A program made the translations under genes and the position numbers. Positions 1 through 7,756 of a stretch of 64,000 nucleotides of DNA are shown here, one piece after another; within the stretch, counting starts at the first letter, position 1, and each line of letters opens with the position of its first letter. This DNA is from Cellulophaga sp. 20_2_10. GTDB lineage: Bacteria > Bacteroidota > Bacteroidia > Flavobacteriales > Flavobacteriaceae. The stretch spans positions 186,001 through 250,000 of the forward strand of contig NZ_JAMCOJ010000005.1 in assembly GCF_023476645.1 (NCBI RefSeq). The letters run 5' to 3'. The notes beneath the pieces are model-generated. The model worked only from the letters and a program-made list of their open reading frames with translations. It did no database searches and was not told where the DNA came from.

Positions 1-1344
1 AAAGAAAAAATAGCTCTAGAAACCGCTACTATCGCTAAACAAAAAGCAACTAAACTTAATGACCCCAAGCTTTTAGAAAAAAGTGAAGAACGTTATGTGC
101 AAGCATTAATCTGGAATAGAAAATTTGTATCTGCAAAACAAGAAATTAGCGCATTAGACCAAAAATATACAAACCGAAATTGGGTTATGGCACTAAAAGC
201 TACATTGGGTATGTACACTGCTAAGTTTAAAACTAGTATTACTAATTATGACAAAATACTAGCAAACGATAGCTTATCTTTTGATGGTAATTTAGGAAAA
301 GCAAATGCATTATTTGCGTCTGATAAAATTGTACCTGCATACATAACTACATATAAAACCTTAGATATTTTTCCCAAACAGAAAGATGCATCAGGCTTAA
401 TTAAAAAGCTAAATACGAATTACACGCCATTTGCAGAACAGCAAGTTAGTTACACGTTTGATAATGGCGACAACACAGCTATATCTTTAAGAACTGCTGT
501 TATGGTACCACTATCTACTAAATTTAGAACAATGGTATCTTACCAATATAGAACCACAGAAAATACCACTACAAACAACAAAGCAAATTCGCATATTGTA
601 CAAGCTGATATTGAATATAAATTGATGCCGCAAACTAATTTATTAACCTCTATTGGCCTTAACAACTCTAGGTTTTCTAATACTGCATACACACAACCCA
701 TTTTACAAGCTAAATTACAAATGAAGCCTTTATCTTTTTTAAACCTAGATTTAGGATACCAAAGAGAGGTACAAAACTTTAACGCAGAGCTTATAGAAAG
801 AGAAATTGTGATGAACCATTACAGCTTAATTTATAACCTTAGTACTAATTTTAATTTAGGTTGGTATAGCCAACTTATACATACTAAGCAAACCGATGAC
901 AATGAAAGAAATCTTTTATTTACTTCTTTATATTATAATGTATTGCAAAAACCTGCTTTAAAATTTGGTGTAAACTACCAATACATAACATTTAAAGATC
1001 AGTTACCATTAATATATTTTAGTCCGGACAAATACAAAGCATTAGAATTATTTGGTGATGTAAGAGGAAAAGTAAATGAAAAAACAAACTATTTTGCAAG
1101 CGCAGCAACTGGTTTACAATATGTAGAAGAACAAGATGCTAGTTCCCTTTTTAGAGCTGAAGCTGGTTTAACACATCAATTTTCTGATCGGTTAATTGGT
1201 GACGTCTATGGTAAATACAGTAACATAGCATCTGCAACAGCTGCTGGTTTTGAGTTTACTGAAGTTGGTATTAAACTAAAATACTACTTAACTAAACAGC
1301 CATTATTTTTAAATAAGCTCAAGAAAAAATATCAGATAAAATAA
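1..1344 (+). CDS. C-terminal part of an outer-membrane beta-barrel protein (5' end outside window)
   Basis: The reading frame is open from the first base and has no convincing start, so the gene begins upstream of the window. The GTG at 97 is simply an internal valine codon. The first ~140 visible residues are helical and Lys/Ala-rich, ending in a segment about repeated units and spacing that resembles TPR-type repeats. From about residue 145 the chain switches to alternating short polar/hydrophobic stretches with Tyr/Phe at regular intervals, typical of an outer-membrane beta-barrel of the YaiO kind. Such barrels follow TPR domains in Bacteroidota export or polysaccharide systems. The product ends in a Lys-rich tail rather than a terminal Phe. 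The exact family and function are not identifiable without the missing N-terminus. Confidence 0.7.
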   Translation, partial: KEKIALETATIAKQKATKLNDPKLLEKSEERYVQALIWNRKFVSAKQEISALDQKYTNRNWVMALKATLGMYTAKFKTSITNYDKILANDSLSFDGNLGKANALFASDKIVPAYITTYKTLDIFPKQKDASGLIKKLNTNYTPFAEQQVSYTFDNGDNTAISLRTAVMVPLSTKFRTMVSYQYRTTENTTTNNKANSHIVQADIEYKLMPQTNLLTSIGLNNSRFSNTAYTQPILQAKLQMKPLSFLNLDLGYQREVQNFNAELIEREIVMNHYSLIYNLSTNFNLGWYSQLIHTKQTDDNERNLLFTSLYYNVLQKPALKFGVNYQYITFKDQLPLIYFSPDKYKALELFGDVRGKVNEKTNYFASAATGLQYVEEQDASSLFRAEAGLTHQFSDRLIGDVYGKYSNIASATAAGFEFTEVGIKLKYYLTKQPLFLNKLKKKYQIK

Positions 1345-1371
1345 AAATGCCTCAACATATAGTTAAGGCAT
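1335..1371 (-). terminator. Rho-independent terminator of the H-NOX/LytTR operon
   Basis: A stem (1347-1371, ATGCCT...AGGCAT plus an inner AAC/GTT) is followed on the minus strand by an interrupted T tract. The inner U-G pair forms only in minus-strand RNA, so it fits the end of the LytTR gene. It overlaps the stop of the convergent plus-strand gene. Confidence 0.6.
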
Positions 1372-1400: not shown

Positions 1401-2120
1401 TTATAATAAATTTAATCTTCTCATTAATTCTGGTCTATTAGACCTGCTAATTGGCACTACGTTTTTTTCTATTAACACACTATTGTCTTCTATATCTATA
1501 ATCTTAGTAAAGTTTATAATATAAGATCTGTGTATTTGCAAAAACAGCTTTTCTGGTAATTTATCTTTAATCTTCTTTAGCGTATTACGTACTCTATAGG
1601 TTTCTTTTACTGTTTTAACTTCTATATAATCTCCTTTGGCTTCTATTAACTGTATGTCGTTAAAATTTATTTTTATTAGTCGCCTGTCTATATTAATATA
1701 CAATTCTTCACCTATCTCAGAGCTAGATGATGAACTTTGTGTTACCGACTCTACCTGTGACTGCTGAGAAAGTGATTTTTTTATTTTTTGTATCGATTTT
1801 TCAAAACGTTCTAGTGTAACTGGCTTTACCAAATAATCTACAATAGCCTCGTACTCATAAGCTTCTATTGCAAAGTTTGTGTCAGAAGTCGTTAAAACTA
1901 TTTTTGGTGGATTTTTTAATGTCTGCACAAAATCAAAACCACTAAAACCTGGCATATGTATATCTAAAAAGATTACATCTACTGTATTCTGATTTAAAAA
2001 TTTTATAGCCTCTATTGCGCTACTAAAATCATCTATAACATCCAAGTTATCAATTTTAGAGCATAGCTGAGATACAATTAGCCTTGCTGTTGCTTCGTCA
2101 TCTACTATAATACAATTCAT
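1401..2120 (-). CDS. LytTR-family response regulator
   Basis: This 239-residue protein has an N-terminal CheY-like receiver (about 1-120), with the acidic pair at D7/D8, phospho-acceptor D53 in FLDIHMPG and a KP near residue 100. A Ser-rich linker follows, then a C-terminal LytTR DNA-binding domain (about 140-239) with the typical IHRSYIIN core. LytTR regulators bind pairs of short direct repeats about 21 bp apart. It is the last gene of a tightly packed operon, three bases after the HPt gene, and is the only DNA-binding protein there. It is therefore the likely transcriptional output of the H-NOX/FIST kinases. Candidate target repeats lie at 7694-7756, upstream of the operon's first gene. 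Family assignment is secure; the target site is inferred. Confidence 0.93.
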   Translation of the reverse strand: MNCIIVDDEATARLIVSQLCSKIDNLDVIDDFSSAIEAIKFLNQNTVDVIFLDIHMPGFSGFDFVQTLKNPPKIVLTTSDTNFAIEAYEYEAIVDYLVKPVTLERFEKSIQKIKKSLSQQSQVESVTQSSSSSSEIGEELYINIDRRLIKINFNDIQLIEAKGDYIEVKTVKETYRVRNTLKKIKDKLPEKLFLQIHRSYIINFTKIIDIEDNSVLIEKNVVPISRSNRPELMRRLNLL

Positions 2121-2123
2121 ATT

Positions 2124-2441
2124 CTAAATGGTTTTTAGGTAGCTAGTTATTTTATCTAGTATTCGTTTAAAATCTGAGTCTAATTTAAAATTTCCTTCTC
2201 TTAGCTCGTTTTCATAAGTAACGGCCAATCCATAGGCTTTTTCTAGTCCTAGAATATTAAACTTGTGTTTTAATTTATGTACTATATCTGCCGTAGCAAT
2301 ATGGTTCTTAGTACTAACTCCCTTGTTGTACGTCTCTACTTCTCCAGGGTATTCTTTTTTTATAATAGCAATAAATTCGTTTAAAAATTCTTGGTTTCCG
2401 TCTGCTAGGGTATTTACGTAATTTAGATTAGGCTCTTCCAT
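2124..2441 (-). CDS. Stand-alone HPt phosphotransfer protein
   Basis: This all-helical protein of 105 residues carries the HPt signature around H55 (IVHKLKHKF), the expected phospho-accepting histidine. HPt proteins shuttle phosphate between receiver domains. The canonical G after HxLK is replaced by H, a mild deviation. Its start overlaps the end of the upstream histidine-kinase gene by 14 bases, and its stop lies three bases before the LytTR gene, implying translational coupling. Neither kinase in the operon has a fused receiver, so the HPt probably takes phosphate from a separate receiver, possibly the one encoded at 7234-7635, or acts as a phosphate sink. Confidence 0.85.
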   Translation of the reverse strand: MEEPNLNYVNTLADGNQEFLNEFIAIIKKEYPGEVETYNKGVSTKNHIATADIVHKLKHKFNILGLEKAYGLAVTYENELREGNFKLDSDFKRILDKITSYLKTI

Positions 2442-3504
2442 TCTGTTCTTTTTTAATAGTGAAGTAAAATGTAGTTCCTTCGTTTTCTTTTGATTCTAAA
2501 AATATTTCACCCTCATAGAAATTTACAATTTTTTCTACTAATGCTAAACCTATTCCGTTAGCTTCTATATCGTTATCTAACTTTTTAAACATTTCAAAAA
2601 TTTTACCTTGGTATTTTTCAGGAATGCCTGTACCGTTATCTTTTACAGCAAACCTCCAAAATTTATCATCTTCTTTATAACTAATACTTATTATACCCCT
2701 ATCTAAATGCTCTGTAGCTTTAACAGCGTTAGTAAGTAAGTTCATAAACAATTGATCTAACCTATACTTGTCTATATGTATCGTTGGTAGTTTATCTTCT
2801 ACTATAATTGTAACGTTTTCGGGTACATATATAGTACTCTCGATATCTTTTATAAGTTCTACTAAATCTACATTACTTTTAGTTTCTTCATTAGACCCAA
2901 TGGTTGCATGTTTTAAAATGCCACTAATTAGGTTGTCCATTTTTATTAAGTTCTGCGATATTAGCGAGCAGTTGTTTAGACTATCTTCTGCAAACTTGTG
3001 CTTTTCCTCTTCTACAATCCAACTCATAAGCGTATTTATATTACGCATAGGAGATTTTAAATCATGAGATACTACGTGCGCATAGTTATTTAAAGACTTA
3101 TTTTGTTCCTCTAAATCCTTTACCAGCCTATCTTTTTCTATAGTAACCATTGCAATATGTTCTGCCTGTTTACTAATATGCTTTGCTAACATTTGTGCAC
3201 TTACTATATTAGATTCTGTTTTAACAACATCTTCTGTATTACCTAAATTAATATTTAGGCTATTAATGGCTTTTTCTAGTGCCTCTAGTGTTTTATTTTG
3301 TTCTTTTGCCTCTTCTGCTAGTTCTAAATTTGCTGCTTTTAATTCTTGTGCACTAATAGTCGTTGCACGTTGTATCATAGAAATTTTATCGTCATAATCT
3401 TCATAAGATTTTTCTACGGCACTAAACAGCATTGCTAAGTCTACATCATTTTTAAACTTTTCTGGCAAATTTTTTCGAATTTGTCTTTTTAATAGTGAAT
3501 GCAT
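2428..3504 (-). CDS. Sensor histidine kinase lacking a membrane or PAS sensor domain
   Basis: The 358-residue protein has an N-terminal helical/coiled-coil part (about 1-140), then a HisKA dimerisation helix with phospho-accepting H147 (VVSHDLKSP) and a HATPase_c domain with N, G1 (DNGTGIP) and G2 (NGIGLAL) boxes. No membrane segment is visible, so it should be cytosolic and take its signal from a partner. It starts at the stop of the FIST gene with a one-base overlap, and FIST proteins (NosP group) are known to control adjacent kinases, so the FIST protein is its likely input. Its catalytic half closely resembles that of the larger kinase at 4642-6621. Confidence 0.93.
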   Translation of the reverse strand: MHSLLKRQIRKNLPEKFKNDVDLAMLFSAVEKSYEDYDDKISMIQRATTISAQELKAANLELAEEAKEQNKTLEALEKAINSLNINLGNTEDVVKTESNIVSAQMLAKHISKQAEHIAMVTIEKDRLVKDLEEQNKSLNNYAHVVSHDLKSPMRNINTLMSWIVEEEKHKFAEDSLNNCSLISQNLIKMDNLISGILKHATIGSNEETKSNVDLVELIKDIESTIYVPENVTIIVEDKLPTIHIDKYRLDQLFMNLLTNAVKATEHLDRGIISISYKEDDKFWRFAVKDNGTGIPEKYQGKIFEMFKKLDNDIEANGIGLALVEKIVNFYEGEIFLESKENEGTTFYFTIKKEQNGRA

Positions 3505-4637
3505 TACTCGCTAATTAAGGTTAAAGTCATTGTTTGGTTGTGCAATTTGCAAGCATTGTTGCCTTCAAAAGGTGCCATTTCTCCGTAAGAATAATATCCC
3601 ATAATTTTAGATTGATTTCCTATTACATCTAAAACCTCTTCTACTTCTTCTTCTGTTCTTTGGTCCATAACCAATTTACGACCAATGCAACTTACAAGTA
3701 ATGCAAGCTCTGGATTTGTTTTCCTATTTCTAGATGCATATACAGCCGCTTTATTTGCACCTTCTGCAATATCATCTACAGTAGACATCATTAATTGTAC
3801 AATAGAGCCTTCTGGTACATCACCGGCTAATATCATTGTATTTTTATCTTCATCAATATTTAAAATTGTGCGTACAATGGGCTCTGCACCTTCGTCTGTT
3901 TTTACACTTAAAGGGTATAATAATGCAGATTTAGGCAACTCGTTTGCTTTTTCTCCTAAATACTTTTTATAGAGATCTAATGCAGGCTTACCATCTAACT
4001 CATATAAAATATTTCCTTTAGATTTTGTTATAATACGTTCTGGCCCAAAACCCGTCCAGCCTCCATAATTAGCACTAGTAATCTCTAATGATGTACCATA
4101 AAAACCAATGGCAACAATTTCACCTTCTTTAGGGTTCTCATTATAAGATGTTAGTGTTCTTTCAAAACGATCATCATCTCCACATAAACCACCAGAAAGT
4201 CCTATAGATATATCTTTCTCTTTTTCTATTCCGGCAATTAAAGCACTACCATTTACAGTACTGCCTTCAGAGACTACATATATATGCCTAAGATCTTCCT
4301 TAGGGAATTCTGCTATTAATTGTGATCCTAAATCTTCTTCGTTATTATTAAAATCCTTTACATTTTTACTCTTAACTATATAAGACGATTTTTTAAACTC
4401 TATTGCTGTTAATACAATTGAATTATTAGTGACACTATCTCCTAAAATTTCACCAGAAGTACTACCAAAAACTATGTTTCCGTTAGGAAACATTTCCTTA
4501 ACCTCGGTATATAAATTTGTATCCTCTAACATATATCTATTGCCAAATACCAATACCAAAGGGTTATTTAAAGCTACATTTTCTGTTGTAAATTGAAAAC
4601 TAGAGCCATTATTTTTTTTTGCTTGTACTATTATCAT
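3504..4637 (-). CDS. FIST-domain protein, candidate NosP-like sensor
   Basis: This protein has an N-terminal FIST_N region (roughly residues 10-215 of 377) and a C-terminal FIST_C domain (about 220-377) ending in the family-typical LHNQTMTLTLISE. I chose the ATG at 4637, five bases after the upstream kinase's stop. The in-frame ATG at 4697 would overlap that gene by 56 bases and add 20 atypical residues. FIST domains are sensory; the NosP subgroup binds haem and nitric oxide and regulates a neighbouring histidine kinase. The presence of an H-NOX gene two genes upstream makes NO sensing plausible here, but I cannot identify a haem ligand from sequence alone. It has no signal peptide and no membrane segment. 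Confidence 0.88.
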   Translation of the reverse strand: MIIVQAKKNNGSSFQFTTENVALNNPLVLVFGNRYMLEDTNLYTEVKEMFPNGNIVFGSTSGEILGDSVTNNSIVLTAIEFKKSSYIVKSKNVKDFNNNEEDLGSQLIAEFPKEDLRHIYVVSEGSTVNGSALIAGIEKEKDISIGLSGGLCGDDDRFERTLTSYNENPKEGEIVAIGFYGTSLEITSANYGGWTGFGPERIITKSKGNILYELDGKPALDLYKKYLGEKANELPKSALLYPLSVKTDEGAEPIVRTILNIDEDKNTMILAGDVPEGSIVQLMMSTVDDIAEGANKAAVYASRNRKTNPELALLVSCIGRKLVMDQRTEEEVEEVLDVIGNQSKIMGYYSYGEMAPFEGNNACKLHNQTMTLTLISE

Positions 4638-4641
4638 AACT

Positions 4642-6621
4642 CTAATTACTATCTTTTTTAAGGGTGAAAAAGAATTTTGTTCCTTTTCCCAATTCACTTT
4701 CTATCCAAACTTTACCTTGGTAGCGGTCTACAATTTTTTTAACTATTGATAAACCTATTCCTGTAGAGCGCTCGTTGTCTCCTATAGATTGAAAAATTTC
4801 GAATATCTTTTTGTGAAATTTCTCTGGTATACCAACACCGTTATCTTCTATACAAAATTGCCAATGTTCTTTTTGATCTGTACACAATACTTTTACAATT
4901 CCTTCCTTTTTTTCTATATGAACAACAGCATTACCAATTATATTCTGAAACAATTGATGAATTTTAGTACTGTCTGCAATTAACAATGGAAGTTTTTCTG
5001 GTACAACTACAGTTACATGTTCTGGTATATAAATACTATCTTTTATGTCTGTAATAATGTTATTTAAATCTACTTTAGCAGTAGACATTTGGGAGCTTCC
5101 GGCAGTAGAATACTCTAAAATACCGTGAATTAACTTGTCCATAAAAGCAATTTTTTCTTGCATAAGTGTTAGGTTTTGCACTCCAGCTTCATCCAACACA
5201 TCTTTATAATCTTCATACGTCCAAGTTGCCAATGCACTTATACTACGTAGAGGTGATTTAAGATCATGAGATACTATATGTGCATACTCTTGCAAACCAT
5301 CGTTACTAATTTTTAACTCTTTAAGTAGCTGCTCTTTTTGCTCTTCTAACTTTTTTTGCCCTGTTATATCTAAATGAATACCAATAGAACCAACGACCTT
5401 ACCTTCTTCATTATATCTTGGAGCACCACTAACAAGCCAATCTCTAATCTCTCCTTTTTTATTAGATATTTTAATCTCGTAAGAGTCTGATATTCCTTCT
5501 AGTCTTTTACGAGTTTTCTCTGCTACAGCTTCATTATTCTGTATGTTTAATATCTTAATAGCATCTTTACCTATTAGTTCTTCTTTGGTATAACCACTCA
5601 TAGAACAAAAGCTTTGGTTTACCATCTGGATTTCATCATCAATAGTTATCTCTATTAAACCCAGATTCATATTAGCTATAATGCCACTATATTTATCTTT
5701 TTCTGCTTTAATTTGTTCTTCTGCTTTTCGCTCTTTGGTAATGTCTTCTATTACGTAAACTTGATATTCTATCTCTCCTTTATCGTTTTTAACAACACTT
5801 ACATTTGTTTTAGCTAAAATGATAGAGCCATCTTTTTTAAAGTACTTTTTTACAGTAGAAAAGTTGTCTAAAAGCCCTGCAGTCATTTCTGAAACCTGCT
5901 TTTCTGTTGCTGCTACATCTTCGGGTTCAGAAATGTTTGATAATTTTATTTCTTCTACCACAGCATTTTTATATCCTAAAAGGTTTATAAACGCGGTATT
6001 AGATTTTATTATTTTATCGTCAACAGTTAAAACAATCCCTAAAGGAGAATTTTCTACAATAATATCTAATTGTTTTTTTTGCTCGTTTAGTAATTCTTTA
6101 ATTTCTGTTTCCTGACTAATATCTCTTATTATACCTTGGGCGCCTATTGGCTTAAAGTCCATATCATAAATAACGCTTGTATTTATTTGTATCCACTTAT
6201 AGCTACCATCTTTTAAAATAATTTTAGCTCTGTAATTTTTTAAAGTCCCAATTTCTAGTAATCGCTGAAAAGACTCTATGGTGTATTGTATAAAATCTTT
6301 GTGTACTAACTTGGGTAGGTTTATGGTTTCTTTGGTATTATCATAACCCAAAAATTCTCGGGCAGATTTGTTCATGTTTACAACATTAAAATTTAGATCC
6401 ATAACAACATAAGGATCTATAATATTAACAAAGCCACCGTCTAATTGTGATGTTGTTTCTGTTAACAAATTTTCTAATTTGTTGTTTGCCTGTTTAAGAT
6501 GTAGTGCAGTATCAAAAAGCTCCTTAGATTTATCCTCTAAAATTTTCTCTGCTTGTATTCTCGCTTTCTTTTGTCTTTCTAGTGCTCTTTTGAGCAAGTG
6601 TATTTCTTTCTCACTATCCAT
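4642..6621 (-). CDS. Three-PAS-domain histidine kinase, likely H-NOX partner
   Basis: The 659-residue cytosolic kinase has an N-terminal coiled coil (about 1-60), three consecutive PAS/PAC modules (about 62-172, 184-296 and 312-421), a HisKA helix with H452 (IVSHDLKSP) and a HATPase_c domain (DNGVGIP, STGIGLSI). No transmembrane segment is visible. Its start overlaps the H-NOX gene's stop by eight bases, the arrangement seen for H-NOX proteins that control a cognate kinase in cis. The regulatory input is therefore probably NO- or redox-dependent binding of H-NOX, with the PAS domains free to add further signals. There is no receiver domain, so phosphate must pass to a separate protein. Confidence 0.94.
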   Translation of the reverse strand: MDSEKEIHLLKRALERQKKARIQAEKILEDKSKELFDTALHLKQANNKLENLLTETTSQLDGGFVNIIDPYVVMDLNFNVVNMNKSAREFLGYDNTKETINLPKLVHKDFIQYTIESFQRLLEIGTLKNYRAKIILKDGSYKWIQINTSVIYDMDFKPIGAQGIIRDISQETEIKELLNEQKKQLDIIVENSPLGIVLTVDDKIIKSNTAFINLLGYKNAVVEEIKLSNISEPEDVAATEKQVSEMTAGLLDNFSTVKKYFKKDGSIILAKTNVSVVKNDKGEIEYQVYVIEDITKERKAEEQIKAEKDKYSGIIANMNLGLIEITIDDEIQMVNQSFCSMSGYTKEELIGKDAIKILNIQNNEAVAEKTRKRLEGISDSYEIKISNKKGEIRDWLVSGAPRYNEEGKVVGSIGIHLDITGQKKLEEQKEQLLKELKISNDGLQEYAHIVSHDLKSPLRSISALATWTYEDYKDVLDEAGVQNLTLMQEKIAFMDKLIHGILEYSTAGSSQMSTAKVDLNNIITDIKDSIYIPEHVTVVVPEKLPLLIADSTKIHQLFQNIIGNAVVHIEKKEGIVKVLCTDQKEHWQFCIEDNGVGIPEKFHKKIFEIFQSIGDNERSTGIGLSIVKKIVDRYQGKVWIESELGKGTKFFFTLKKDSN

Positions 6622-7156
6622 TCTGTACTATATCAAATTTAACTTCTGTTCCGTTATCATTTAAAAGTTGATATGTTACTGTAGCCGTACTATTAAAATG
6701 TTCAAAAGACTTTTCTATAAGACCGTGAGCTAATTGGTACAAACCTCTAGATGAAGAATAAACCATAGAGATAGAAGTATCTGTTTTTTCTAAAATTTTA
6801 AACGTTGGCAACTCAGCATCAGGATACAGTTTTTTTACATGTACATGAATATGGTCTTCTATAGAGTACAATAAACTTAAAGGAGAATTATAACTTTTAA
6901 TTACTTCTGGGTGTGCACTTGCCAAGCCATTAAATAAAAATAAACCAAATGCGTAGATTAAATCTCCTACTGGCGTTTTAACTTCTGTACTTAAACTGGT
7001 AATAAGACTTACCATTTCGTTAAAACTGTAGGTGCCAACAGATGTATAAATCCCTTCTGATGGTAAATTAGAATTTTCTATAATATTATCTACAGTTTCT
7101 AATCCAAACTTAGATTCTACCATTTCTAAAAATTCGGTAAATACAACTCCTTTCAT
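6614..7156 (-). CDS. H-NOX haem nitric oxide/oxygen-binding sensor
   Basis: This single-domain protein of 180 residues matches the H-NOX (HNOB) family over its whole length. The proximal haem ligand is H104 in IHVHVKKLYPDAELP, aligned with the sGC/Tt H-NOX histidine. The haem-propionate clamp YxSxR is intact as Y133-S135-R137 (YSSSR). H-NOX proteins bind NO, and in some lineages O2, and regulate a neighbouring histidine kinase or cyclase. I see no obvious distal Tyr, but I cannot exclude O2 binding without an alignment. It is encoded directly upstream of, and overlaps, the PAS kinase gene. Expression may come from the promoter of the receiver gene 77 bp upstream or from a weak internal promoter. 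Confidence 0.94.
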   Translation of the reverse strand: MKGVVFTEFLEMVESKFGLETVDNIIENSNLPSEGIYTSVGTYSFNEMVSLITSLSTEVKTPVGDLIYAFGLFLFNGLASAHPEVIKSYNSPLSLLYSIEDHIHVHVKKLYPDAELPTFKILEKTDTSISMVYSSSRGLYQLAHGLIEKSFEHFNSTATVTYQLLNDNGTEVKFDIVQNG

Positions 7157-7175
7157 ACTTAGACGTTTAAGTAAT

Positions 7176-7202
7176 TAAAAGTAAGAAAAATAATACCTAC
7201 AA
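7176..7202 (-). promoter_or_regulatory. Weak candidate internal promoter before H-NOX gene
   Basis: On the minus strand a TTG (7200-7202) is followed after 16 bp by TACTTTTA (7176-7183), one mismatch from the Bacteroidota TAnnTTTG element. The leader would be only about 15 nt, so this is tentative. Confidence 0.25.
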
Positions 7203-7233
7203 TATCATTTTTGTTGTGAAACGCGTTAAATCA

Positions 7234-7635
7234 TTAGCCTTTTACTAGTTCGTTGTTGTCCCAGTAGTTAAGAACACTTTGCATTTTAGTTTCGTAATCC
7301 TCGTATTTAAGCGGTTTAATAACATAACCTGCAATACCAATTCTATAACATTCTAATAAATCTGCTCTATTTTCTGATGTTGTTAATACAATTGTTGGCA
7401 AATACCTTAAAGTGTCATCTGCCTTTAAAATAGACAAAAACTCTATGCCACTCATTCTTGGCATATTTAAATCTAACAAAATAATGTCTGGTAAAGTATT
7501 ACCTGATTTTAATATATCTAGAGCTTCCTCACCATTCTTTGCCTCCGTTATTTTATGCTTTAATTGAAGCTTAGAAACTGTTCTTTTCAGCTTCATAGTC
7601 TCAATCATATCGTCTTCAATAAATAAAATATTCAT
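7234..7635 (-). CDS. Stand-alone CheY-like receiver protein
   Basis: This 133-residue protein is a lone receiver domain. It has acidic residues E7-D8-D9, phospho-acceptor D55 in ILLDLNMPRMSG, the conserved T in VLTTS and K in GYVIKPL. There is no output domain. It lies 77 bp upstream of the H-NOX gene on the same strand with no terminator between, so it probably belongs to the same transcript. Since the two kinases of the operon have no receivers of their own and an HPt protein is encoded downstream, this protein is the obvious intermediate in a kinase-receiver-HPt-LytTR relay. That role is inference. Confidence 0.93.
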   Translation of the reverse strand: MNILFIEDDMIETMKLKRTVSKLQLKHKITEAKNGEEALDILKSGNTLPDIILLDLNMPRMSGIEFLSILKADDTLRYLPTIVLTTSENRADLLECYRIGIAGYVIKPLKYEDYETKMQSVLNYWDNNELVKG

Positions 7636-7655: not shown

Positions 7656-7663
7656 CAAAAGTA
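7656..7663 (-). promoter_or_regulatory. Promoter -7 element of receiver/H-NOX operon
   Basis: TACTTTTG on the minus strand matches the Bacteroidota TAnnTTTG consensus exactly and lies about 20 bases before the ATG at 7635. The -33 region has only TTT-like sequence, which fits a promoter needing an activator at the adjacent repeats (7694-7756). Confidence 0.45.
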
Positions 7664-7693
7664 ATAGTACACTTCTAATTAAAATTTAGCCTG

Positions 7694-7756
7694 TAGGTGA
7701 ATAGTAGTTTAGTGTAGACGAATGGTAATTTACTATAGGTTAATAAATTTAAATTT
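7694..7756 (-). promoter_or_regulatory. Three 21-bp direct repeats, candidate LytTR operator
   Basis: Three head-to-tail 21-bp units occupy 7694-7714, 7715-7735 and 7736-7756. The two nearest the promoter share 15 of the first 20 positions. Read on the minus strand their common core is ACYATTCRYCTA; the distal copy keeps ATT and CCTA. Tandem repeats with 21-bp spacing are the known site architecture of LytTR regulators. The array ends about 30 bp upstream of the -7 element, a position expected for an activator. Confidence 0.5.

Follow-up and report, generated by a model that had tools for sequence, protein, structure and literature searches.

Within a 64,000-nucleotide stretch of the Cellulophaga sp. 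20_2_10 genome (contig NZ_JAMCOJ010000005.1, positions 186,001 to 250,000; hereafter, the window), seven genes on the minus strand, running from position 7635 to 1401, encode in this order a single-domain receiver, an H-NOX protein, a histidine kinase (HK1), a FIST protein, a second histidine kinase (HK2), a histidine phosphotransfer (HPt) protein, and a response regulator with a LytTR DNA-binding domain. Comparison of this operon with its relatives, and of the tandem repeats in front of it with similar sites elsewhere, suggests that it probably encodes a four-step phosphorelay that takes in two sensory signals, regulates its own operon, and controls matrix genes in response to nitric oxide (NO).

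Conservation and organization of the operon

Among the best 80 of 578 confirmed relatives from a scan with the FIST alignment, the order receiver, H-NOX, kinase, FIST, kinase, HPt, LytTR was found on one strand, by profile thresholds, in 51 loci, including that of Kordia algicida. The median gaps between neighboring genes range from -4 to +9 bp, and the largest single gap, between the receiver and H-NOX genes, is 219 bp; because the order recurs in 51 loci with such short median gaps, it is not a product of chance. By title, all 51 loci belong to Flavobacteriaceae, with the exception of L136, titled Cytophagaceae, and the genera represented include Cellulophaga, Maribacter, Flagellimonas, Winogradskyella, Algibacter, Aquimarina, Polaribacter, Leeuwenhoekiella, Christiangramia, Kordia, and Flavobacterium. 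The nearest of the best 80 is Cellulophaga fucicola, with a FIST protein that is 92% identical and an H-NOX protein identical over the aligned columns. The remaining 29 loci comprise 11 close relatives that are partial, cut by contig ends, or variant (L106, L118, L121, L138, L144, L145, L148, L153, L157, L158, and L164) and 18 distant FIST loci (L161-L163 and L166-L180) with no H-NOX, HPt, or LytTR gene assigned.

An earlier reading of this DNA from its letters (hereafter, the sequence-only reading) had proposed a neighborhood search for H-NOX with FIST. In 296 genomes sampled from the order, H-NOX was matched in 33, FIST in 51, and both in 22; in 12 of these 22, all from the window's own family, the two genes lie at most 3 kb apart on one strand. 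The Cellulophaga sp. 20_2_10 genome has one match of each.

The seven genes listed by the sequence-only reading are all present as open reading frames (ORFs) at its stated coordinates on the minus strand, with Pfam matches above the cut-off for every product except HPt (Table 1). From H-NOX to LytTR the genes overlap or abut, as it described, and 77 bp separate the receiver and H-NOX genes. The receiver gene had been placed upstream; it belongs to the operon, because LytTR-type repeats (7690-7747) lie upstream of it and a terminator-like hairpin (1371-1347) follows the last gene, one of 4 such sites in the window (mean of shuffles, 2.0). Pfam recognizes three PAS stretches and HATPase_c in HK1, HATPase_c in HK2, and Response_reg (66.6 bits) with LytTR (72.3 bits) in the regulator, which thus has the receiver-LytTR architecture. 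For the FIST gene, the ATG at 4637, where nearly all aligned homologs begin, is a more likely start than the GTG at 4697.

Table 1 The operon and adjoining features in the window (aa, amino acids)
Feature	Position	Strand	Basis and remarks
Single-domain receiver, gene 1, 133 aa	7234..7635	-	Response_reg 74.7 bits; proposed Asp intermediate of the relay
H-NOX protein, 180 aa	6614..7156	-	HNOB 135.1 bits; His104, YxSxR, hinge Gly71
HK1, receiver-less histidine kinase with three PAS stretches, 659 aa, His452	4642..6621	-	Pfam
FIST_N + FIST_C protein, 377 aa from ATG 4637	3504..4637	-	Pfam, aligned homologs
HK2, putative FIST-partner N-terminal domain (about residues 1-120) and kinase core related to HK1; His147	2428..3504	-	Profile, tree
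HPt, 105 aa, candidate phospho-acceptor His55	2124..2441	-	Fold model, invariant His
Receiver-LytTR response regulator, 239 aa, Asp53	1401..2120	-	Pfam
Three tandem LytTR-type half-sites, presumed autoregulatory	7690..7747 (7732-7747, 7711-7726, 7690-7705)	-	Period 21 bp
TACTTTTG, presumed -7-type promoter box	7656..7663	-	26 bp after the last half-site; coordinates by hand
Terminator-like hairpin after the LytTR gene	1347..1371	-	Hairpin scan
C-terminal part of a 705-aa TPR protein	97..1344	+	Full gene begins left of the window

Two sensor-type proteins

The H-NOX protein, well above the HNOB cut-off of 25.5 bits and of this fold by profile, has as its closest solved structures 6bde (196 bits) and 6bdd (193 bits). 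Both features that the sequence-only reading had pointed out, the heme histidine and the YxSxR motif, were located (His104 and Tyr133-x-Ser135-x-Arg137, counted on the translation); by pattern, the histidine is found in 50 of the 51 complete operons and YxSxR in 48. We regard this protein as very likely an NO sensor. The two structures are of Kordia algicida H-NOX (PDB 6BDD/6BDE): the H-NOX protein of the Kordia locus (L154), which lies in the same operon type, reads identical to the 6bdd chain over the residues compared by eye, and the window protein is 49% identical to it, with Gly71 where Kordia has Ala.

The FIST protein belongs to its family by Pfam (FIST, 138.9 bits; FIST_C, 119.7 bits). 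No solved FIST structure was found by sequence search; the predicted structure, good in one of five models only, matches FBXO22 (E value 8.9e-11). The next solved matches of this model are cyclic amide hydrolases of the Toblerone fold (TM-scores of about 0.33-0.37), hinting that the FIST fold may derive from an old enzyme fold. Near the C-terminus, Cys363 and His366 are invariant in all 23 aligned sequences, His366 being the sole invariant histidine, and this pair is a possible ligand site. As a discriminating heme ligand, His366 was rejected, since every aligned FIST row has it.

HK1 and HK2: related cores, different N-termini

No Pfam domain was detected in the N-terminal ~120 residues of HK2 (window 3145-3504). 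A profile of this region recognizes the FIST-adjacent protein at all 18 distant FIST loci and none of the 51 HK1 proteins; in the window's own genome, it matches HK2 alone (E values up to 1). The 296 genomes contain 47 matches to it, spread over 46 genomes. A same-strand FIST_N domain precedes 44 of these matches by 482-520 bp; the other three (in G088, G188, and G211) are from genomes with no FIST match, and the domain is absent from 8 of the 51 FIST genomes. Because this domain follows FIST directly in 44 of 47 matches, we mark HK2 as the putative kinase of FIST, and the N-terminal region may be a FIST-docking domain.

A quick tree was built from 64 kinase cores. They came from 16 of the 51 operons, from the variants, from distant FIST kinases (9 used of 13), from other H-NOX kinases (8 used of 9), and from three more FIST kinases; L088 was dropped, and others had no usable core. 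In this tree, HK1 and HK2 of the operons fall in one group (support 98), separate from most of the other kinases tested that are associated with FIST or H-NOX, with the L161 and L094 kinases also at its base. The best paralog of HK2 in its own genome is HK1, at 203 bits, the next scoring 111 (28 matches, including HK2 itself), and the phospho-histidine regions of both kinases (51 sequences each) conform to a consensus like YAHxVSHDLKSPLRSIxALxxW, which is looser in HK2 at positions +6, +8, and +11. The tree does not settle a single origin of HK2 from HK1: HK1 needs 3 changes, and support on the HK2 side is 32. Since their catalytic cores are closely related, HK1 and HK2 probably serve one relay. 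A Tenacibaculum locus (L145) has two HK2-type kinases and one FIST gene: its FIST-HK2 pair is followed, after about 2 kb, by an operon of the order receiver-H-NOX-HK1-HK2'-HPt-LytTR.

A proposed split phosphorelay

Neither HK1 nor HK2 has a receiver domain. Receiver-less kinases, a stand-alone receiver, an HPt protein, and a DNA-binding receiver protein are together the components expected of a split phosphorelay of the type of Spo0F, Spo0B, and Spo0A. In the 52 operons (the window and the 51 others), the receiver retains D8, D55, and K107 without exception, Asp53 of the LytTR regulator is invariant, and so are His55, Lys58, and Lys60 of HPt. The HPt protein falls short of Pfam PF01627 (16.1 bits; cut-off, 24.6); its structural model (pLDDT 93.9) has HPt domains as the best solved matches (3myf, TM-score 0.77; BarA; HptB), with modest E values, the best being 5.6e-3 and none under 0.001. 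Together, the model and the conservation describe a predicted helical-bundle HPt protein with an invariant histidine.

Because neither kinase has a receiver and the sole separate receiver is the product of gene 1, that protein would be the Asp donor for HPt. In the Vibrio parahaemolyticus H-NOX/HqsK system, the HPt protein LuxU is phosphorylated solely by His-Asp-His transfer through a receiver (PMC6759604).

LytTR-type repeats and promoter

All 52 operons share a tandem direct repeat near ACCATTCRYCKACACT ahead of the receiver gene; its period is 21 bp in 50 of them and 22 bp in 2. Every one of these repeats scores above all 1040 mononucleotide shuffles with a matrix trained on operon sites. 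In a clade split, for which training sites were placed by the full matrix, training on 35 operons put 17 of 17 test repeats above the best of 680 dinucleotide shuffles, and training on 17 put 34 of 35 above the best of 1400, with all 35 above the 99th percentile. The window half-sites, in the order of Table 1, score 5.1, 24.6, and 13.7, that at 7732-7747 being weak, and the pairs score 29.7 and 38.3; the reversed control of the matrix scan of the window gave 0, and there are 2 pattern matches versus 0.01 expected. Across the 296 genomes, the pattern at 2 mismatches matched in 23 (reversed control, 1): 15 of the 20 with the operon or a variant of it (including G072 and G206) versus 8 of the 276 others. 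Placement by hand put the match ahead of the receiver gene, and in the same orientation, in 12 of the 15.

The box TACTTTTG at 7656..7663 we take to be the -7-type promoter box of Bacteroidota. An AnnTTTG sequence occurs between the repeats and the start codon in 27 of the 52 operons (shuffles: mean 7.4, maximum 14), and 24 of these 27 boxes follow the scored pair at a distance of 26-28 or 47-49 bp, two ranges that differ by one repeat period; the stricter TAnnTTTG is present in 8 only, which is not above all shuffles (mean 3.0, maximum 10). Repeats followed by a box suggest an activator layout, and the repeats are presumed to be an autoregulatory LytTR binding site. Direct repeats of described LytTR systems are mostly 12 bp apart (11-13), just upstream of the -35 element, with positive autoregulation (PMC6193735), and the 21-bp period would agree with this spacing if the repeat is about 9 bp. 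Unlike the proposed relay, those systems are treated as a sensory class apart from phosphosignaling (PMC6193735).

Genes behind further sites

At up to 3 mismatches, the pattern has 8 matches in the window's own genome (reversed control, 1), two of which are the operon promoter. One match (C45:185121), about 850 bp left of the window, separates a minus-strand STAS-flippase-glycosyltransferase run from the divergent plus-strand TPR gene that ends at 1344, and a second site, found by the matrix only, precedes the glycosyltransferase of this run. The flippase, which has no Pfam match, was named by comparison and appearance; the 705-aa TPR protein may be an outer-membrane export protein, with matches to export-porin profiles that are far below the cut-offs. 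Further left are a glycosyl-hydrolase-like protein, a Big_1-like protein, and a 1028-aa protein for which the library search gave no match. Another site (C34:13150, score 31.5) lies 160 bp upstream of an ORF of >2330 aa for a secreted-looking repeat protein (L190:1-6990), the end of which is beyond the stretch fetched. The match at C34:40620 and three others with 3 mismatches, with no or low matrix scores, were taken as chance and discarded.

In the 51 loci, outside operons and promoters (717,047 bases), 42 pairs score at least 20, and the reversed and complemented control matrices give 0 and 0. The 36 pairs scoring at least 22 include 6 with no ORF assigned; the others lead to 30 ORFs, 17 of which match probes from the cluster: six of the L129-type secreted family (L129 included), five STAS proteins, three flippases, and three glycosyltransferases. 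The polysaccharide and surface genes, with the operon itself, are thus the likely output of the regulator, as judged by the placement of sites.

The secreted proteins of about 820-870 aa encoded after the LytTR gene, with a LytTR-type site in front, are found in L129, L132, L136, L137, L140, and L147; a DUF6923 domain and a type IX secretion system sorting tail were found in that of L129, to which that of L136 is only 29% identical. Near the polysaccharide genes left of the window, a receiver domain is fused to a family-2 glycosyltransferase (L195:14687-15838, C45), a fusion that might place the enzyme under direct phosphate control.

Natural variants

Among the variants, sought in 40 stretches taken from the 296 genomes, four loci lack FIST-HK2 and keep the order receiver-H-NOX-HK1-HPt-LytTR (L075, L076, L077, and L079); in one of these genomes, G286, a kinase-FIST-HK2 set is found at a separate place (L080). 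H-NOX is missing from L084 and L085. Receiver-H-NOX-HK1 stands alone, with FIST-HK2 elsewhere, in L073 (with L089) and L074 (with L088). Because the pairs occur without each other, each sensor-kinase pair appears to behave as a cassette attached to a shared relay.

A different H-NOX protein, 26-27% identical to that of the window (four loci with a BLAST match), is found in a Flavobacterium group. These proteins group by themselves in a 12-row clade (support 100), consisting of the Flavobacterium operons L119, L120, L125, L126, and L142 and seven rows of genus g2 (L061, L064, L066, L067, L068, L071, and L072); judged by its score, the H-NOX of L117, also Flavobacterium sp., is of the usual type. 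For the L061 protein, the one member tested, the closest solved structures are Nostoc Alr2278 (161 bits) and the beta-1 subunit of soluble guanylate cyclase (sGC; 103 bits), with just 39 bits for Kordia H-NOX. Since the neighboring genes remain ordinary homologs, we read this as a putative exchange of H-NOX in place for a cyanobacterial/sGC-like type.

Within this clade, the YxSxR motif of L067 and L072 reads YYTST. These two loci carry identical H-NOX copies 57 kb apart on one contig (G231:C1), each adjoining a receiver gene, with FIST and HK2 assigned behind just one copy, as if the locus had been partly duplicated. A locus from another family has, after its H-NOX gene, a 1063-aa ORF with a match to the LytTR regulator, which may be a kinase-regulator fusion (L097:8772-11963).

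Proposed mechanism and alternatives

In the proposed phosphorelay, H-NOX would set the activity of HK1, and FIST would dock on the N-terminal domain of HK2 and set its activity. Since both kinases are without receivers and have related cores, both would pass phosphate to the stand-alone receiver, in a manner similar to Spo0F, from which it would proceed to HPt and then to the LytTR regulator. The phosphorylated regulator would bind tandem 21-bp repeats immediately before two sets of promoters, that of its own operon and those of the polysaccharide and secreted surface-protein genes, and would presumably activate both. Binding of NO to H-NOX would change HK1 output and, with it, matrix production; by precedent, NO would be expected to lower kinase activity and matrix synthesis. 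The sequence-only reading had envisaged an integrated circuit in which two NO sensors feed one LytTR regulator. The operon, two sensor-type proteins, two kinases, and a single LytTR output are there, and convergence is likely because the kinase cores are related and the promoter site is common; a response of both sensors to NO is less certain.

Several observations weigh against this phosphorelay or parts of it. The sequences are also compatible with kinases that phosphorylate the LytTR receiver directly instead of reaching HPt through gene 1. In G072 and G206, receiver-H-NOX-HK1 occurs with no HPt-LytTR beside it, so HK1 can have another output. On the promoter side, the pattern match in G143 and G221 is some 250-290 bp upstream and on the opposite strand, and that in G206 is about 7 kb away; five of the 20 operon- or variant-bearing genomes (G072, G153, G201, G231, and G256) gave no match at 2 mismatches. 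As for the targets, a homolog of the window's polysaccharide cluster is present in the fetched flank of just 30 of the 51 loci, with two or more in 22, and 13 of the 30 ORFs behind sites match no cluster probe. Three of these 13 are of the sugar or polysaccharide type by Pfam, one of them weakly (L151, a nucleotidyl transferase similar to mannose-1-phosphate guanylyltransferase; L165, a UDP-glucose/GDP-mannose dehydrogenase; L149, a weak GNVR/Wzc-like match); the others include a phosphoribosyltransferase-like protein (L126, with L125 alike by appearance) and several short ORFs, perhaps spurious. Finally, the FIST protein scores 64.2 bits against the NosP equivalog NCBIfam NF041558, for which the cut-off is 450.

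This last point bears on the strongest alternative, to which we give nearly the same weight as to its opposite: that the relay is the same and FIST, rather than sensing NO, reports another ligand, such as free heme or a metabolite, joining NO with a second signal. Along with the NosP cut-off, missed by far, the identity of the FIST protein is 37-41% to Legionella and Azospirillum plasmid FIST proteins and 22-30% to other plasmid records; the FIST protein CdpA is listed as responding to heme (PMC8846402); and loss or relocation of the FIST-HK2 pair has taken place without H-NOX (L075, L076, L077, L079, L080, L088, and L089). Against it, the FIST-kinase pairs in the literature consulted respond to NO and/or heme (PMC12570481), and the invariant Cys363/His366 pair is a possible ligand site, yet one that every aligned FIST row shares. 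On balance, NO as the FIST ligand falls somewhat short of an even chance, heme or another ligand being the alternative.

Two parallel pathways on one transcript, with HK1 acting through the single receiver on a protein target and HK2 acting through HPt on LytTR, appear unlikely. Such a separation would fit G072 and G206, which keep receiver-H-NOX-HK1 with no nearby HPt-LytTR and have FIST-HK2 elsewhere. However, operons without FIST-HK2 (L075, L076, L077, and L079) keep HPt, LytTR, and the site upstream of the receiver gene, and those without H-NOX (L084, L085, L153, and L158) keep the receiver, with the LytTR gene on the other strand in L084 and none assigned beside the other three; the related cores of HK1 and HK2 also speak for convergence. 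Least probable is a reading in which the H-NOX proteins of this clade chiefly sense redox state or O2, as in the heme-free redox sensing reported for V. cholerae H-NOX (PMC8738867), given that the heme histidine is nearly universal by pattern, that the related Kordia H-NOX was grouped with those of facultative anaerobes (PMC7356049), and that the genome has a nitrite reductase.

Possible NO source and NO detoxification

The nitrite reductase is of the copper type (348-350 bits; cut-off, 296), with weak cytochrome-c matches at the C-terminus, and is a possible source of NO. A 739-aa protein of the COX1 family is, from its size, possibly a quinol NO reductase. Neither the nirK locus (L225) nor the COX1-like locus (L226) has a LytTR-type site, by the pattern at up to 3 mismatches genome-wide or the matrix scan. 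A globin search gave no match, other NO-detoxification families not having been searched. NO detoxification was accordingly rejected as the main output, weaker sites being conceivable. At L225:2392-3861 (C12), the nitrite reductase gene is divergent from a gene for fused cbb3 oxidase subunits I and II.

Relation to known systems

LuxO, the regulator of the Vibrio pathway, is not known to be a LytTR protein. H-NOX-HqsK-LuxU-LuxO resembles the operon in that an H-NOX-controlled kinase feeds an HPt protein and then a transcription regulator in a His-Asp-His-Asp relay; it differs in that HqsK, a hybrid kinase, carries a receiver of its own, the output is quorum sensing, and no FIST partner is named in the accessible text (PMC6759604). 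The NosP-NosK/NahK systems are similar in having FIST beside a kinase, with an N-terminal sequence of ~130 aa and no known domain in NosK, and NahK-HptB of Pseudomonas aeruginosa in having HPt downstream (PMC12570481, PMC11784011). Unlike these, the window has a FIST protein below the NosP cut-off, an HK2 core related to that of the H-NOX kinase, and a predicted output of LytTR with polysaccharide genes rather than a regulator of the cyclic di-GMP (c-di-GMP) type (PMC12570481, PMC11784011).

In V. cholerae, H-NOX and NosP are both present, in intersecting networks. NosP is said, in the title of Nisbett 2019, to modulate the H-NOX network of Shewanella oneidensis, with biofilm and c-di-GMP as output; going by this title, that system is like the operon in having two NO-linked sensors on one network together with biofilm, and differs in its c-di-GMP output. 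FIST genes were placed near H-NOX group 1 in a published neighborhood network, the accessible account of which describes no operon, kinase order, HPt, LytTR, target, or group 1 taxa (PMC8738867). In the paper cited there for this network, a word search gave no FIST, Bacteroid-, Flavobacteri-, or neighborhood. The view in the sequence-only reading that H-NOX and NosP/FIST are separate systems was, in light of these three precedents, too strong.

H-NOX/FIST neighborhoods and H-NOX networks with NosP are therefore already published. No prior description of the seven-gene operon was found among the titles and abstract openings listed from the open-license literature. What is added here is the predicted LytTR output, with matrix polysaccharide and surface proteins as targets.

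Implications

NO control of biofilm has so far been worked out, in the sources at hand, through c-di-GMP and quorum sensing, mostly in Proteobacteria. For a group of marine bacteria that is widespread, the anatomy of the operon predicts another route, involving neither, in which signals would pass from an NO sensor to a kinase, a split relay, the LytTR regulator, and polysaccharide genes. A broader generalization, for which we see the case as evenly balanced, is a conserved flavobacterial NO-integration module. In it, two sensors of different chemistry would be read by two kinases that are alike in their cores and unlike in the parts that dock the sensors, and would share a single split phosphorelay and LytTR regulator, with direct control of matrix polysaccharide and adhesin-like genes without c-di-GMP and with sensor slots that are exchangeable, as in the Flavobacterium H-NOX swap.

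The structurally known Kordia H-NOX is now placed in an operon, and the putative FIST-partner kinase domain may be used for finding FIST pathways. The natural variants, with no FIST, no H-NOX, or a swapped H-NOX, bear on why a cell keeps two sensors per relay. For many marine flavobacteria, the operon provides a candidate link between NO and biofilm, with a defined DNA site and a list of targets.

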